From: Leptodontidium sp. MPI-SDFR-AT-0119
Taxonomy: Eukaryota > Ascomycota > Leotiomycetes > Helotiales > Leptodontidiaceae
Assembly (NCBI GenBank): GCA_020726505.1
Contig: JAHLEZ010000010.1
Location: 806,001 to 870,000 of the forward strand
Length of the DNA stretch: 64,000 nucleotides
Direction: 5' to 3'
Shown here: in pieces, positions 29,224 through 49,466 of the stretch
Position numbering within the stretch: position 1 is the first letter of the stretch
How the letters are laid out: each line of letters opens with the position of its first letter
The notes under the pieces: generated by a model
What the model was told of the DNA's origin: nothing
What the model saw: the letters and a program-made list of their open reading frames with translations, nothing else
Database searches by the model: none
Made by a program: the position numbers and the translations under genes

Positions 29224-31277
29224 ATGGATTCTACTCAAGCCCGCTCCAATACAGTCAATCCGCGACTCACCCTGTCTGCCCGTCAAGAGGAATTACTGTT
29301 TGCGGCTCTCAATTCCAACAACAAAGTCTCCAACATAGACACCTCCAACATTCAATCAAAGGATCAATTCGCAATGGCTCCCGGCTCTTTCACTGAGTCT
29401 CCTCTTCAAGCCCCCGGCTCTGGTACCTTGAATGGCTTTGAGGAGAGCCCTTTCATCGATTACGACTATGAATTCGACGGTGACGGAAGCTTTGACTATG
29501 GCGACTTCAACAACGACTCGCAGGCCCAGATGATTGGCAATCTGCCTGGTACTTCTTCGGATGGAGGTGATAATGAGAATCACGATAAGCGAAGCCATCC
29601 GGATGATGATGGCGACGAAGAGGAGGGTGGCGGAAAGCGAAGAGAGGGCGATGAAAAAGCCGCAAAGAAGCCAGGACGAAAGCCCTTGACATCTGAACCT
29701 ACTTCGGTGAGTGCTCCTTGGTAATCACCTTCACTGCGACTGTTGCTGATACTTCCGAACAGAAGCGTAAGGCTCAAAATCGCGCTGCTCAACGAGCATT
29801 CCGGGAACGTAAGGAGAAACATTTGAAGGACTTGGAGACCAAGGTCGAGGATCTAGAAAAGGCATCGGAATCGGCCAACCACGAGAACAGTATTCTACGT
29901 GCTCAAATAGAAAAGATGTCGATGGAGTTGCGAGAGTACCGCAAGAGGCTTTCTCTCAACGGAGCTGCCGGACGCAACACTTCCCTCACCAACGGCTTGC
30001 CCCCATATCTCGCAGGCAAGGGTTTCGGCAATGGAGGTCTCAATAACCCAAATGATGTCAATTTCCAATTTGAGTTTCCCAGATTTGGTCGTCTCCCTGG
30101 ACCACCAGCTACTACCACCGTCAATCCTGCGAGGAGTTCCACTTCACCATCTGTTGCAAGTAAGCAAGGTCTAAGCCCCGTCGAGAAGGGACAAGTCAGT
30201 CCTCGCAACCAATCATTGCAGTACCCAGCGAGCAACGGCTCCAATGCTGGTCTAACCCAAACCCCCGCTCAACTTGAGGGCGAGGACATGTCAAGTCTTT
30301 CGGGTCTCTTCAGTCCATCACTACTTGAAAGTGTCGGAAAATCTCCACCATTTGAGTACTTCGCGAACACTAACAACGGCTCAAACGGATCGCGGTCTAG
30401 CACGGATTCTGCTAATGGCAACATGAGTACTGGCCACAGCACATCATACAGTTCTCCTTCAGCATCGTCGAATTCGAACCATGGACCAAGTTCGTCTTGC
30501 GGTACCTCTCCGGAGCCTACCATGCAATCTCCGGTTTACAACAAGCCTTTGGACAGCACACTGACCACCATTGGCGAGGAACACTCCGCAACAAATGCAA
30601 CTGGCGAAGGTGAGCTCACCTTCTGCGATAAGCTTAACATGGCTTGTGGCAACTCCAACAATCCCATCCCACGTATAATGTCTGAACCTGGTGCAAATTC
30701 AGGAACTTTCGGAACTCCCGCTTTTGACATCAACGGAATTGACTGGTTCGCCCAACAAAACAACAACCAATTTGACCCTCAACTCTTCGGCGATTACAGG
30801 GAGCCTCAAGACAACATTCTGTCAAGTGAGCCTTATGGAGATACCTTCTTCACTGATGCTTTCGCCCTGGGAGACTTCACTAGTCCATTCAATGTGGCAC
30901 CAAGTCCTGCTCCACCTAAGAAGGATCTGGTCGCCCGGATTGATGAGAAGCAGAATGAGGAAGACGAGGTTGTCCCAGGAGAGGATCCCGCACAAATGCT
31001 CAGCTGTAACACAATCTGGTATGCACCCCGCCTCTGACTCGCTTAACGAGAAATGAGACCCTTTCTCCTGCCCGAATAGATTGCTAACTCGAGTCCCAGG
31101 GATCGTTTACAAGCCTGCCCCAAGGTTAAGGAGGGTGAATTTGACCTTGACCTTCTCTGCAAGGACCTCCAGAAAAAGGCCAAGTGCTCAGAAACCGGTG
31201 CTGTAGTCAACGAATCCGACTTCAACAAGATCATGAAGTCGTACGTTGAGTCTCAGGCGAAGCCTACCGGAGCTTAG
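29224..31277 (+). CDS. AP1: AP-1-like bZIP transcription factor (Yap1/Pap1 family)
   Basis: Three exons: 29224-29706, 29763-31018 and 31100-31277, giving 638 aa. Residues from 162 form the basic region and leucine zipper: AQNRAAQRAFRERKEKHL, then DLETKVEDLEKASE. A PAP1-type region follows. The n-CRD cysteines lie at about residue 450 (FCDKLNMACG). The c-CRD is at the C-terminus, with SCNTIWDRLQACP and LLCKDLQKKAKC, overlapping the export signal. In this family, peroxide links the two CRDs by disulfides, blocks Crm1 export and turns on antioxidant genes. The last intron falls inside the c-CRD (between NTI and WDRL), so its splicing decides whether a redox-responsive form is made. The upstream leader is long and repeat-rich. 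Confidence 0.95.
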
Positions 31278-41025: not shown

Positions 41026-43220
41026 TTAATAGGCGGCGTCACGAAGAGGCCGGACTAGTTGGTTCAACAAGGCATCAAGTTCCTTCCAATTCTCAGGCTT
41101 CTCGGCGAATTTCCGATGTTTTCGAGACAAGACGTGCTGGAACACATGTTAGCATTGCATCTTATTCAACGATGGTGAAGCAACCATACCTCGTCAAAGT
41201 CCTCGAACTTATCCTGGCAGTTCTCACAATATCCAGGTTTGGGATCTCGCTTCTCGAGTTTCCTCTGTTGAACAGCCTTTGCTTTTCGAGTAGCTTCAAC
41301 CTTTCTTGCTGCGTCCTCGGCTTCGGATGGATCGACGTCTTCCTCAATCAGAGTAAGTTTATCTTGTGCTCGCAATCTAGATGGCCGAGCTGCCATCTCC
41401 TCTCTAGCAGCACCGACAATGTCGGTCATACGATGGGAGCTTGTCAAGCCGTGTGAGCCAGGGCCACCACTATTCTTCTCCAGGACCTTTCTTTGCAGAC
41501 CATGGACCTCCTTGCTGGTTCCAGCTTTGGCTCCTGGCTGAGCTGCGGTTGAAGAAATCACATTGGATCTGATGGCTGATGTTATGTTTGATGGCTGAAG
41601 TCCTGATGCAACAGGTTCCCCTCCAAACAGACGGCCGGCACCAGCACGGCTGACGAATGCGTTTTGATTGCCGCGAGAAGAGGCCTCATGTTCCGTCTTT
41701 TGCGAAAATGTGTTGTTACTAGGAGCAAATGGATTTGTTTGTTTGGTTGAGACGGTGACGTTCCGATTTGAGGCACTATCCATTTCAGATAGTGTTCTCT
41801 TACCAGTGACCTTGGGTGGCTGCATTCTGGCTGCTTGCACAGCCGTTGCGGCACGAGTCCGTGGAATCATTGCCTTCTCCTTTTCCTGCTGCCTTTGAAG
41901 TCGAATCGCTTCCTTCTCTTTCTCGGCTTCCCGTTGGCTGTAGTCAACCTCCTCAACGAAGGGGCATTTCCCATTAGCCACACTTCGAAATTGCGGCCAG
42001 TCGCCATCCTCTTTGTGTGCTACTTTGGCGTATTCTCGAACCATTATTGGCCGTTGCTTCTCGTCAATATCGTGAATATAGATAAATGGGCCCTTGAAAA
42101 GCGTGATCTCTTTGGTAGCCACAGTAGGATCACGGTCTGAAGGTCCATTGATCCTCTCGTTACGCAGTAGCTGCGAAAGATCCGCCTCGCGTGCTGTTCT
42201 AGGAAGTGTCGTTGACACTGAATTGCTCCTGGTGTTGTGTCCGTGATTTGTCTGTCCTGTCTCCGCATCAAACATAGCGGTCATCATTCGTTGTAGTTTC
42301 TCCAGTGCCCATATTTTCATGCCCAATTCCCGGGCTCTATACAAAACATCTGCATTACGACCTTGCTGTCTCCTAACATCTGCATCTTGGCCATGTGGTG
42401 CCAATCGCCTGTTGATTGGTGCCTCAAATGTAAACTTTCCCCTTCCACCCAAGTCGGAATATGTGTTTGCCGATTCTGATGACCGGTCTAGAAGGGAAGG
42501 ATTGATCGTCTGGGGTTGGCTGTTCTGCGAGTCGTTGGTTGAAGAAGTAACGGGCGGTTCTGTTGAGTGACTTGGCTGAGCTGGAGGAATGGATCGAGTT
42601 GTCACAACATGGGTTACTGCATTCGAGAAGAACTTTTCTTCGCGCTACAAACGGTCTTAGTACTCACAATAATGAGGGGGAAGCCATGGTTCAAGACTTA
42701 CTGCTCCAAGTGCAACTACTTGCTTCGTATACTTGATACGCACCTCCTCTGAGATACTCTCAAAGTAGAATACAAAAGTTGGAAATATCTTCCGGTAATG
42801 CTTCTGCCATTGTCTGATTGTGTCCAAGTTTTCTTCAGTTGTCTTGTCCGCCTTCGTAACCGTCTGCTGAGGTTTCTCCCTCTCCCTGACTGCAACCAGC
42901 TTCCGTTCGAACGCGGACTGCTGAGAGGCATTAGATTTTCGAGTAAACACACGTCCTTCCACGGAGTTCTGGCTCAATTGTTGACGAGGCGGCGTTCTGA
43001 TTGTCTGGTAGTTCTCGAGCATCTGCTTCTTAGCGGGCGGTGGTTGGCCATATGCTTCTTCGCGCTGAATGGTGGCATAGGATCGTTTCTGCTTGGACGC
43101 AGCAGCTGCTACTGCTCTATAAGGTGAATTGACAGCATTGGGATTGCTGGACAAAGGCACTCTCTTCCCTGACATGGTGGATAGATTGAGAGGCAAGGGT
43201 GATATCGATACTGCTGCCAT
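41026..43220 (-). CDS. DBF4: Dbf4/Dfp1/NimO regulatory subunit of Cdc7 kinase
   Basis: Three exons: 43220-42702, 42644-41190 and 41136-41026, giving 694 aa. Three hallmark Dbf4 blocks are present. Motif N (BRCT-like) lies at about residues 145-190 (IFPTFVFYFE, then NAVTHVVTTR across intron 1). Motif M, which binds Cdc7, reads LFKGPFIYIHDIDEKQRPI. Motif C is a CCHH zinc finger: CENC in exon 2 and H-x5-H (HVLSRKH) in exon 3, so intron 2 splits the finger. Linkers are disordered and rich in Arg, Gln and Ser. Dbf4 activates Cdc7 to phosphorylate MCM helicase at origins; the Aspergillus orthologue is nimO. It is divergent with ICP55. Confidence 0.93.
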
Positions 43221-43732: not shown

Positions 43733-45318
43733 ATGAAACTCCGGAGACCTGCCTTGCAACAACTGCACAAAGCATTCCAACCCTCACGTCCAAGATGTCC
43801 GTCCCAAGTTCTTGCATCTGCAGTTAGAAGTCGCACCACAACCCAACCTCGAAGAACATATGCCTCAGTATCCGCGGCGGATCTCCAATTTGGACAACCT
43901 GTTTATGAGACACATCCCCATCTACTAAGGCCGGGCGAAAGTATGTACCTGCTTCAATTCTGGGTGATGTTGGCTAACATGTTCTTCAGTTACTCCCGGC
44001 ATCACGGCCCAGGAATATGCAGACCGACGAGCAAAGCTTGCTGCAAGTCTCCCTGCCAATGGGATAGCTATTTTGGCTTCATCTAACACGAAATATCGAT
44101 CAGGCGCTGTCTTCTACGAATTCCACCAGGAACCAAACTTCTTGTACTTGACCGGATTCACTGAACCAGAGGCAGTGGCTGTCATCCAGAGAGTGGGATC
44201 ATCTGCAGACTACATTTTCCACCTTTTTCTCCGGTCGAAGGATGCAAAAGCAGAACAATGGGAAGGCGCAAGATCTGGCGAACAAGCGGCATTAGATGTG
44301 TTCAATGCGGACGAGGTTCGTCTACCCGTTGAAACTTCTGAGTAAGTGCTGATGAAAGTAGTCGGGTGACATCAACCAGTTGCACGCTCTCCTTCCACCT
44401 TTGATTGCAGGCGCAAGTGAGGTCTACACCGATATAGCAAAGTGCTCTGGATTTGGACTTTTCTTCCGGAATCAAGATGCACCACCAAACGACTTCCAGA
44501 AGATGATAAAGGACAGCAAAGTCAAGCCACTCAAGCCATTGATGCATGACCTGAGGATCATCAAAAGTGAAGCTGAGATTACCAATATGCGTCTTGCGGG
44601 GAAATATTCTGGAAGGGCAATCACTAACGCAATGCGCCGACAGTGGACGAAAGAAAAAGATCTAGCAGCTTTCCTTGACTACGACTTCAAAGTATGTGGT
44701 TGTGATACGACTGCATATATTCCAGTTATCGCAGGAGGCAGTAATGCTCTAAGCATTCATTATGTTCGAAATAACGATGTGCTTCAAGACGGCCAAATCG
44801 TCCTAGTGGACGCGGGTGGAGAGTATGGTGGTTACATTACAGATATCACAAGGTCCTGGCCTGTCAACGGGAAATTCTCAGATCCCCAAAGGGACCTTTA
44901 CGAAGCTATACTACGAGTTCAGCGGAGCAGTGTATCACTTTGCAGGGAGAGTGCAAACATGACCTTGGATAAGATCCACCAAATCACAGAGCATGGGTTG
45001 AGGGAGGGGCTCAAGTCTCTGGGCTTCAATATGAATGGGGATGCCATGGATGTTCTCTTCCCTCATCACGTTGGGCACTACGTCGGGCTAGATGTGCATG
45101 ACTGCCCTGGATATTCCCGCTCGACACCGCTGAAAACTGGCCACTGTGTTACCATCGAGCCAGGAATATATGTTCCAGATGATGAAAGATGGCCGGAACA
45201 TTTTAGAGGCATGGGGATCAGGATAGAGGACAGCGTTTGTGTCCAAGATGATTCACCACTCATTCTGACAACAGAGGCCGTCAAGGAAGTTGTGGATATT
45301 GAAGCTTTACGGGATTGA
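43733..45318 (+). CDS. ICP55: Mitochondrial intermediate cleaving peptidase, Xaa-Pro aminopeptidase family
   Basis: Three exons: 43733-43940, 43990-44315 and 44362-45318, giving 496 aa. The N-terminus is Arg-rich, without acids, as in mitochondrial presequences (MKLRRPALQQLHKAFQPSR). Then comes the aminopeptidase-P N-terminal domain (YEFHQEPNFLYLTGF). The pita-bread catalytic domain follows, with metal ligands visible: Asp in LVDAGGEYGG and in DITRSWP, His in HHVGHYVGLDVHD, Glu in VTIEPGIYV and Glu in GIRIEDSV. In yeast, Icp55 removes one residue from presequence-processed matrix proteins and stabilises them under the N-end rule. Both introns keep the frame. Confidence 0.92.
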
Positions 45319-46417: not shown

Positions 46418-47478
46418 TCAAATGGCTTTCGTCTCCAACATACGCTCAAACTCGGCGAGTTCCTCTTTTGAAATCGGATAAGTGTGTTCCGGCGCAGGAT
46501 AGGAGCGGTCCTTTGTCTCGTCTCTATACGCTTCAATGGCTTTCAAGCTTTCGTTCCACACATCACCATACTTTTTGACGAACTTCGGAATGAATCGACC
46601 GGGTGGGAAGTTGCCGGTCATGTCTACCTGGACCAGCACTTGGCCAGAGCAGCCGTTTCCGGCACCAATACCGATCGTTGGGATGGAGAGTTTCTTTGTG
46701 ATCAGAGCGGCGACCTCTTGAGGGACGGCTTCGACTACTGTTGCGAAGCACCCTGCTTCTTGGATGGCTAGGGCGTCTTCGAGAACGCTCATGGCGCCCG
46801 CAGATGTTTTGCCTTGGACACGGAATCCCCCTAGGGCGTTCTGGCGTTGTGGTGTTAGTCCAATGTGGCCGAGGACTGGGATGCCCGCGGCCGTGATTTT
46901 CTTGATGGTTGGAGCCATTTCCAGGCCACCCTCAAGTTTGATGCCTTGCATACGGCCAGTCTTGACGAATTTGATTGCGGTTTCCAAGGCCTGCTCCGGA
47001 GATATCTCATATGATCCCATTGGAAGATCTCCGACCTGAAGATGAGAAGTTAGTTTTGTTCTTTGATGGGCACGTGGTTGCATACAGTGAAGGCCGTGTT
47101 TGCGGCTCGAGCTACCGAACGACAATGAAGTAGCATTTCTTCCACCAAGACCTCGCTGGTATCTTCCATTCCTAGTGCTACCATTGCGAGACTGTCTCCT
47201 ACAAGTATGATTTCCATTCCAGCAGCGTCAGCAACATGGCCACTAGGGAAGTCGTGAGCCGTGAGGACAGTAATAGGTTCCCCCTTTTTATACAAGGAGC
47301 GAAGCGTATTCAAAGTGACTTTCTTCCTCTGACTTGGCCCCGATGATCCCATAGGAGAATGAGAGCTGTATCTGCTCTGGTATTGTGACATGCAAGGTCT
47401 AGCAGCAAATACAGCTGGGCGAAATGACAGCGAAAGAAGGGTACGAGAGCTTTTCATGATGGAATGTGCTGGTGACAT
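46418..47478 (-). CDS. panB: Ketopantoate hydroxymethyltransferase
   Basis: Two exons: 47478-47086 and 47035-46418, giving 336 aa. The ATG at 47478 gives an Arg/Ser-rich N-terminus typical of mitochondrial targeting; upstream frame has no other ATG. The TIM-barrel motifs of PanB are evident: ITVLTAHDFPSG, IILVGDSLAMVALG with the metal-binding Asp, GIKLEGG, IPVLGHIGLTPQ, and VVEAVPQEVA with TIGIGAGNGCSGQVLVQVD. The enzyme adds a hydroxymethyl group from methylene-tetrahydrofolate to 2-oxoisovalerate, the first step to pantothenate and CoA (yeast ECM31, Aspergillus panB). The intron joins AFT to VGDLPMGSYE. It is divergent with the UBC8 gene. Confidence 0.95.
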
Positions 47479-48474: not shown

Positions 48475-49466
48475 ATGTCTTCCCCACGACGACGTATTGA
48501 GACGGATGTGAGTGAAGAATATACCTTGGAACCTGTAGAGGAGAGTGGCAGAGACTGACTGATGCTTGTCGTTAACAGGTCATGAAGTGAGTTGAGCCCT
48601 CCCGTTGTCCGACCAGGGAAGCACTGCTAACGAATATTTCTAGGATGTATGCGCTACCCTTCCGAACTTCGCAGGAGGATACTGATGGTTATTAGGTTGA
48701 TGAGCGACTATGAGGTTACTCTAGTCAATGACAATAGTAAGTATTGCTCCATCTCAACGTCCTTTTCTGCGTACTGATTCCCGTTTAGTGTACGTCCTCC
48801 CCATTTCCGAGATCACCACATGATGTATTGATAAATTGGCAACAGGCAGGAATTCTACGTCCGATTCAAGGGACCCGAAGAGAGTAGGTTCGACGCAAAT
48901 GCGATGTGAAATAGAGGTCTGACCAACTGTAGCACCATTCCAGGGTGGCTTGTGGAAGGTTCACGTCGAGCTGCCAGATCAGTACCCCTACAAATCACCC
49001 AGCATCGGCTTCGTGAACCGCATATTCCACCCAAACATTGACGAGTTGTATGGACCTTTCCGGAACAAGTGGACATATTCTGATGAAGAGCTAGATCCGG
49101 TTCCGTTTGCCTCGACGTGATCAACCAGACCTGGTCGCCCATGTTCGACATGATCAACATCTTCGAAGTCTTTCTCCCACAACTCCTTCGATACCCAAAT
49201 CCTACAGACCCTCTGAACGGCGAGGCTGCTGCGTTGCTGATGCGGGAACCCAAGAGCTACGATGCTAAGGTCAAGGGTAGGTAAAATATGGTTAGAGACA
49301 TTTTGGATATAGCTGATGCTCTACAGAATACGTCGCCAAATATGCTAGCAAGGAAGCCGCAGACGAAGCCGGAGCCGAGACGGACGATGATGACGATATG
49401 TCTTCCGTCGGAAGTTTTGGTGATGATGAGGACGAGGAGCCAGCCGGACAAATGGAGGAGGTATAA
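48475..49466 (+). CDS. UBC8: Ubiquitin-conjugating enzyme E2, UBC8/UBE2H type, with micro-exons
   Basis: Nine exons give a 186-aa E2: 48475-48507, 48579-48586, 48644-48646, 48696-48736, 48789, 48846-48883, 48933-49047, 49095-49276 and 49327-49466. The protein reads [20 protein letters not shown]..., matching the family through [26 protein letters not shown], the HPN motif (FHPNIDE) and the active-site Cys85 in [13 protein letters not shown]. It ends with a C-terminal acidic tail. Yeast Ubc8 and the GID/CTLH ligase degrade gluconeogenic enzymes when glucose returns; human UBE2H is the CTLH partner. The exon sizes of 8, 3 and 1 nt are needed to keep both frame and conserved residues. Each of these small exons is bounded by a YAG acceptor and a GTRNGT-like donor. 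See findings. Confidence 0.93.

Follow-up and report, generated by a model that had tools for sequence, protein, structure and literature searches.

Coding exons of a single nucleotide form a tiny class. In nuclear genes they are known from APC11 (PMC4674806; PMC8831610), VPS55 (PMC8831610), and CYP621A (PMC12940212), and the Fusarium CYP621A paper presents its case as the first from a fungus and as number two overall (PMC12940212). An earlier note on the present DNA had called examples very rare and mentioned an Arabidopsis gene; the class, though very small, is less sparse than stated there. APC11 of Arabidopsis and other land plants resembles the UBC8 gene described below in that one frame-critical base lies between GT-AG introns and was missed by annotation (PMC4674806; PMC8831610). 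The exon is retained in most land plants (PMC4674806; PMC8831610), and intron definition with sequential removal is proposed by Guo and Liu (PMC4674806). The APC11 exon is a plant one consisting of an A, lies 333 nt into an intronic stretch, and is documented by cDNA and reporter constructs (PMC4674806), whereas that of UBC8 is fungal, consists of a T, is flanked by two introns of about 55 nt, and is predicted here from sequence. VPS55 of land plants likewise harbors a conserved 1-nt exon absent from reference annotations; it differs in being a plant gene for which, in some species, isoforms with and without this exon are described (PMC8831610). CYP621A is a fungal nuclear gene for which the same frame and motif logic applies, orthologues lend support, and annotated transcripts are mostly wrong (PMC12940212). 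Its description concerns Fusarium, with 20 orthologues given in the abstract and 24 genes in the discussion, and includes a G in AGGGT and RNA reads (PMC12940212), while the UBC8 exon apparently extends over several Pezizomycotina classes, is a T, has a 3-nt exon nearby, and is deduced from DNA and protein sequences.

Two further systems are related in lay-out. Fungal stwintrons also comprise two adjacent short introns that are removed consecutively; in them, a splice signal of the outer intron is interrupted by the inner one and no base is kept, whereas in UBC8 one base is kept and both introns are complete. One-base exons between introns are also found in mitochondria, i.e. in placozoan cox1 (PMC5436844) and Ophiostoma rnl (PMC12308204). 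These cases are organellar, and the Ophiostoma rnl exon is described as lying between group II, non-spliceosomal introns (PMC12308204). No report of a UBC8 single-nucleotide exon was found in the literature searched, which consisted mostly of the main texts of open papers.

The gene in question lies on the plus strand at 48475-49466 of the window, the whole stretch of 64,000 nt that was analyzed, which is part of contig 2 of a genome of 77 Mb in 69 contigs. It encodes a UBC8/UBE2H-type E2 with a 186-residue translation in nine exons, separated by introns of 47-71 nt that are GT-AG in 8/8 cases (Table 1). Among PDB sequences, the translation matches the E2-24 kDa chain 8pmq_E (E 2e-70), which we take to be yeast Ubc8, and the E2 H chain 8pjn_2 (E 7.5e-68). 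The UBC domain (PF00179, UQ_con) was matched with E 1.1e-39 on P0002, a protein 96% identical to that of the window. A Cys motif and an acidic tail, the defining marks of the UBC8/UBE2H family, are both present in the window protein; Cys85 presumably plays the catalytic role. By analogy to yeast, an E2 of this type would work with the GID/CTLH ligase. The same genome yielded 20 protein matches, of which three are the UBC8 gene itself; the remaining 17 score lower, with E values no better than 1.9e-15 and partial alignments of up to 51% identity, and probably represent other E2s. Judged by its reading frames, the neighborhood appears to be ordinary fungal gene space, with Pfam matches to a PAP1-type bZIP factor (29718-31034, plus strand), Dfp1/Him1 with a DBF4 BRCT (41166-42602, minus strand), peptidase M24 (44380-45315, plus strand), and ketopantoate hydroxymethyltransferase (46421-47125, minus strand).

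Table 1. Exons, introns, and related features of the UBC8/UBE2H-type E2 gene (positions in the window).
Feature	Position	Strand	Description
Exon 1	48475..48507	+	33 nt; 11 residues, translation agrees with UBC8 orthologues
Intron 1	48508..48578	+	71 nt, GTGAGT..AACAG
Exon 2	48579..48586	+	8 nt, GTCATGAA
Intron 2	48587..48643	+	57 nt, GTGAGT..CTAAC..TTCTAG
Exon 3, micro-exon GAT	48644..48646	+	3 nt, yields VMK-M-LMSDY; consistent with orthologue pattern
Intron 3	48647..48695	+	49 nt, GTATGC..CTGAT..TATTAG
Exon 4	48696..48736	+	41 nt, 3' end ..GACAATA
Intron 4	48737..48788	+	52 nt, donor GTAAGT, acceptor TTTAG
Intron 4 branch motif CTGAT	48774	+	distance of its A to 3' splice site, 11 nt
Exon 5, predicted single-nucleotide exon T	48789..48789	+	Met29 codon, middle base
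Intron 5	48790..48845	+	56 nt, donor GTACGT, acceptor AACAG
Intron 5 branch-like motif TTGAT	48828	+	distance of its A to 3' splice site, 14 nt
Exon 6	48846..48883	+	38 nt, begins GCAGGAATTC
Intron 6	48884..48932	+	49 nt
Exon 7	48933..49047	+	115 nt
Intron 7	49048..49094	+	47 nt
Exon 8	49095..49276	+	182 nt, contains SGSVCLDV motif with Cys85
Intron 8	49277..49326	+	50 nt
Exon 9	49327..49466	+	140 nt, stop codon included, acidic C-terminal tail
Rival single intron	48741..48845	+	donor GTATTG, protein would read NDNSKQEF

The coordinates given in the earlier note were confirmed base for base, with exon 4 ending at 48736, GTAAGT from 48737, TTTAG up to 48788, and T at 48789; the same is true for the donor GTACGT at 48790, the acceptor AACAG up to 48845, and the start of exon 6 (GCAGGAATTC) at 48846. 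One coding base is thus enclosed by canonical GT-AG introns (TTTAG-T-GTACGT). Joins between the anchors SDYE and EFYVR were enumerated with GT/GC..AG boundaries and introns of at least 30 nt, yielding six one-intron and eight two-intron solutions in frame. NDNMQEFYVR results from only one of the eight two-intron solutions, that removing 48737-48788 and 48790-48845 with the T in between, so that the statement that only A+T+G restores the conserved NDN-M-QEFYVRF proved right for the enumerated joins, and the T is required for both the reading frame and the motif. The further statement that a direct join of exon 4 to exon 6 is out of frame holds from donor 48737, but it overlooked the in-frame rival donor at 48741. 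The best one-intron solution leads from this donor (GTATTG) to the acceptor at 48845 and replaces M by SK. When the T is skipped (48737 to 48845), a frameshift with a stop at codon 69 ensues, ahead of Cys85, and read-through from 48789 into intron 5 yields MYV... The predicted spliced junctions are AATATGCAGGAA with the T, AATAGCAGGAA for the frameshifted form skipping it, and AATAGTAAGCAGGAA for the rival donor 48741 (NDNSKQEF).

Splice sites were judged by U1 pairing and by comparison with the gene's own eight introns. At the intron positions, U1 pairing amounts to 6/6 for donor 48737, 5/6 for donor 48790, and 3/6 for the rival donor 48741, and a branch-like motif is located 10-20 nt before the 3' end in 8/8 introns (CTGAT, CTAAC, CTGAC; TTGAT in intron 5). 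Two features count against the one-base exon: the intron 5 donor in its AGT/GTACGT context has a poor U1 energy that does not surpass that of the rival (+1.3 versus +1.0), and its TTGAT deviates from the CTRAY of the other introns. The pattern YAG-N-GTRNGT occurs eight times in 128 kb (both strands, the 48789 site included), and its chance expectation in the 19 allowed positions, i.e. those leaving 45 nt on either side within the 109-nt gap, is 0.0012, or 0.0004 with T in the middle. The gaps 48587-48695 and 48737-48845, hiding the 3-nt and the 1-nt exon, respectively, each measure exactly 109 nt. The likeness of introns 4 and 5 is no better than that of shuffles (816/1000 as good), leaving an origin by duplication of these introns unsupported; that of introns 2 and 3 is borderline (57/1000 shuffles as good).

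Orthologues were collected by three protein searches, the best 120 of 5727, 5757, and 5676 matches being taken, respectively, which gave 229 distinct proteins. These were sorted by hand into 114 NCBI-annotated proteins of Pezizomycotina, 40 NCBI-annotated proteins of other fungi, and 73 remaining ORFs; two plant proteins (P0001, P0078) were excluded from the counts, and P0044 and P0053, each stemming from an annotated as well as another source, were placed with the annotated proteins. The remaining ORFs lie mostly on short contigs (P0020 and P0207 are without stated length), which, from their lengths and open frames, are probably cDNA. Under one strict pattern the one-base-exon junction is intact in 17/114 Pezizomycotina, 36/40 other fungi, and 68/73 remaining ORFs, counts in which several genera are sampled more than once and best-scoring matches to an intact query favor intact proteins. 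The four misses among other fungi and the five among the remaining ORFs are substitutions only; Met, Leu, or Ile stands there without insertion or deletion in 40/40 and 73/73, respectively. A relaxed pattern lets 19/114 pass, the extra two (P0018, P0085) being S-M-Q insertions, so that 17 was kept, and another gives 16/114, 38/40, and 72/73.

At the ordinary junctions, the number of intact proteins among these 114 is 95 (1/2), 111 (6/7), 113 (7/8), and 110 (8/9), the 8/9 pattern suiting other fungi less (31/40). In the first search only, the one-base-exon junction is intact in 14/75 annotated proteins, a set that includes the non-Pezizomycotina Saitoella, versus 43/43 (Fisher P 2.5e-20); the ordinary junctions give P values from 0.054 to 1 and the 3-nt exon 8.6e-9. 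Distributed over classes, intact junctions are found in 0/11 Leotiomycetes, 8/44 Sordariomycetes, 4/20 Dothideomycetes, 2/29 Eurotiomycetes, 0/3 Pezizomycetes, and 3/7 others. The 17 intact annotated proteins are a further point against the one-base exon, as an intron may have been lost in some lineages. Around the 3-nt exon 48644-48646, the junctions are intact in 46/114 Pezizomycotina, 70/73 remaining ORFs, and 37/40 other fungi; among the non-intact Pezizomycotina, this exon is left out in 34 (VMK-LM) and read through in 11 (VMKMY..), and the other 23 deviate in different ways. To judge from these protein models, it is misannotated much like the one-base exon.

The way in which the 97/114 non-intact Pezizomycotina proteins fail is informative. 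Their junctions fall into S-x-Q (16), further S-initial (25), MY/MF (13), K-F (12), R (6), other M (4), other (17), and unparsed forms (4, one of them P0097), next to the 17 intact ones. Inserts resembling read-through of the intron 4 or intron 5 donor account for 54/97 (41 S-initial plus 13 MY/MF); the remaining 43/97 are not decoded as either kind, which counts against the one-base exon. An S after NDN corresponds to AGT, i.e. the A of exon 4 followed by the intron 4 donor GT being read through. The residue after S is K in 18 of the 41 cases, T in five, E in five, M in three, R in three, and another one in seven, where K, T, E, and M match the donors GTAAG, GTACG, GTGAG, and GTATG, respectively. 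MY represents A+T+GTAY and thus read-through of the one-base exon together with the next donor; the MY/MF signature is present in Leotio-, Sordario-, Dothideo-, and Eurotiomycetes. Five annotated proteins read NDNRQEF and P0163 reads NDNRSEF (set: P0023, P0030, P0057, P0098, P0145, P0163); this could be an annotation error, or the one-base exon could have given way there to one simple intron next to an Arg codon, a possibility that counts against the proposed exon. Twelve annotated proteins (e.g. P0041, P0123) carry NDN-K-FYV/FFV and have lost MQE, for which our guess is that CAAG within exon 6 was wrongly taken as the acceptor in genes with CAA for Gln. Taken from these models, the pattern suggests that database UBC8 proteins of filamentous ascomycetes are often wrong at this spot.

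Two close relatives bear on the junction directly. P0002, with 96% identity over 186 residues, the same length, and 239 member sequences, reads NDNMQEF, and its frame is complete on a contig of 928 nt compared with a genomic span of 992 nt here, from which we infer that it stems from spliced cDNA. In Cadophora sp. M221, the annotated P0097 begins with an ATG within exon 4, reads intron 4 in another frame, and is joined to exon 6. When the window is read in this way, 176/178 residues agree with P0097, both differences lying inside the intron 4 part, and the sole GT-AG join reproducing it among those scanned uses donor 48790 and acceptor 48845; the donor just after the T is hence employed in the annotation, made independently, of a closely related genome. 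Accordingly, the fungus carrying the window is probably a Cadophora-like member of the Helotiales. Orthologous fungal UBC8 DNA was not found in the genome-contig collection, which held three distant prokaryotic E2-like loci, or in the viral-contig collection, and to judge from wrong protein models (the 13 MY/MF forms and P0097), orthologous DNA may have the one-base arrangement.

Four other explanations were weighed. The in-frame single intron of 105 nt from 48741 (GTATTG) to 48845, giving NDN-SK-QEFYVRF with a one-residue insertion and dispensing with the one-base exon, gains from the S-x-Q insertions of just such kind in 16/114 annotated Pezizomycotina, including Drepanopeziza P0003. The inserted residue, however, is K, M, T, or E in 13/16 of these proteins, the codons obtained from GTAAGT, GTATGT, GTACGT, and GTGAGT when the +5 GT is used, so that the form looks like an artefact of software that rescues the frame by splicing at this GT, four bases into the true donor. 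Such an insertion is present in 0/73 remaining ORFs and 0/40 other fungi; moreover, the donor with its 3/6 pairing overlaps GTAAGT with 6/6, and the branch motif and acceptor of intron 4 would be left unexplained. This reading is therefore considered very unlikely. Still less credit is given to a five-base exon TGTAC with a donor GTCCTC at 48794 and an acceptor at 48849: NDN-MY-EFYVR would be in frame and of the right length, but the donor is very weak (U1 2/6 intron positions, +2.6) and the Gln found in most intact orthologues is lost.

With lengths of only 52 and 56 nt and directly neighboring positions, introns 4 and 5 resemble fungal stwintrons in lay-out, and a nested or regenerated intron might be removed without retaining a base, by stwintron or zero-exon recursive splicing. 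Complete removal, however, amounts to the one-intron joins, which are out of frame from the GTAAGT donor, and the Met codon requires the T. Introns 4 and 5 are both complete, neither splitting a splice signal of the other, and the site reads AG-T-GT with a required T instead of a zero-length recursive splice site, which makes this reading scarcely conceivable. Loss or gain of one base in the assembly near an ordinary 109-nt intron was considered because the models differ by one base only. Against it stand the 97/114 annotated Pezizomycotina deviating at this place in five classes, the insertion or deletion at the same junction in 0/40 other fungi, and the near-identical Cadophora protein, which fits the DNA from exon 4 via intron 4 to the T; an assembly error is thus exceedingly improbable.

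We are highly confident that T 48789 is a constitutive one-base coding exon of the UBC8/UBE2H-type E2; its flanking introns would be removed sequentially, and its origin probably lies early in the Pezizomycotina. The earlier interpretation as a single-nucleotide exon is upheld as the best model, backed by orthologous proteins; the comparison of UBC8 orthologue proteins that the earlier note had proposed favors the one-base exon and speaks against the SK form. It is very probable that this fungal gene, itself widely conserved, has an exon of one nucleotide, which is apparently ancient. From the protein comparison, it seems common to many Pezizomycotina and hence no private trait of one genome. 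Each flanking intron, being short and complete, would be recognized by intron definition. As the acceptor of intron 4 overlaps with the donor of intron 5 (TTTAG-T-GTACGT), both sites could hardly be bound simultaneously, and the two introns are expected to be excised in succession, whichever goes first, which in this species would leave the T joined to both neighbors. A+T+G would then form the conserved Met29 codon, while skipping of the T would lead to a frameshift and a stop ahead of Cys85. An early ancestor of the Pezizomycotina probably already possessed the double-intron arrangement, which has presumably been kept since and on which gene callers would frequently fail. A doubtful further proposal is that the 1-nt and 3-nt exons arose in the Pezizomycotina ancestor and were kept as a splicing-controlled on/off switch. 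Productive splicing would then be two sequential reactions through overlapping sites, the skipped form, frameshifted before Cys85, would undergo mRNA decay, and splicing efficiency would set the amount of E2.

If the constitutive one-base exon is real, UBC8 would join the handful of nuclear genes known to have a single-nucleotide exon and be, among the literature found, the second fungal case after CYP621A. It would reside in a widely conserved gene, apparently in several classes, in comparison to CYP621A described from Fusarium. Given short introns, even a minimal exon could then persist through deep evolutionary time, and laboratory moulds would offer a tractable system for studying the order and fidelity with which two introns with overlapping sites are removed.
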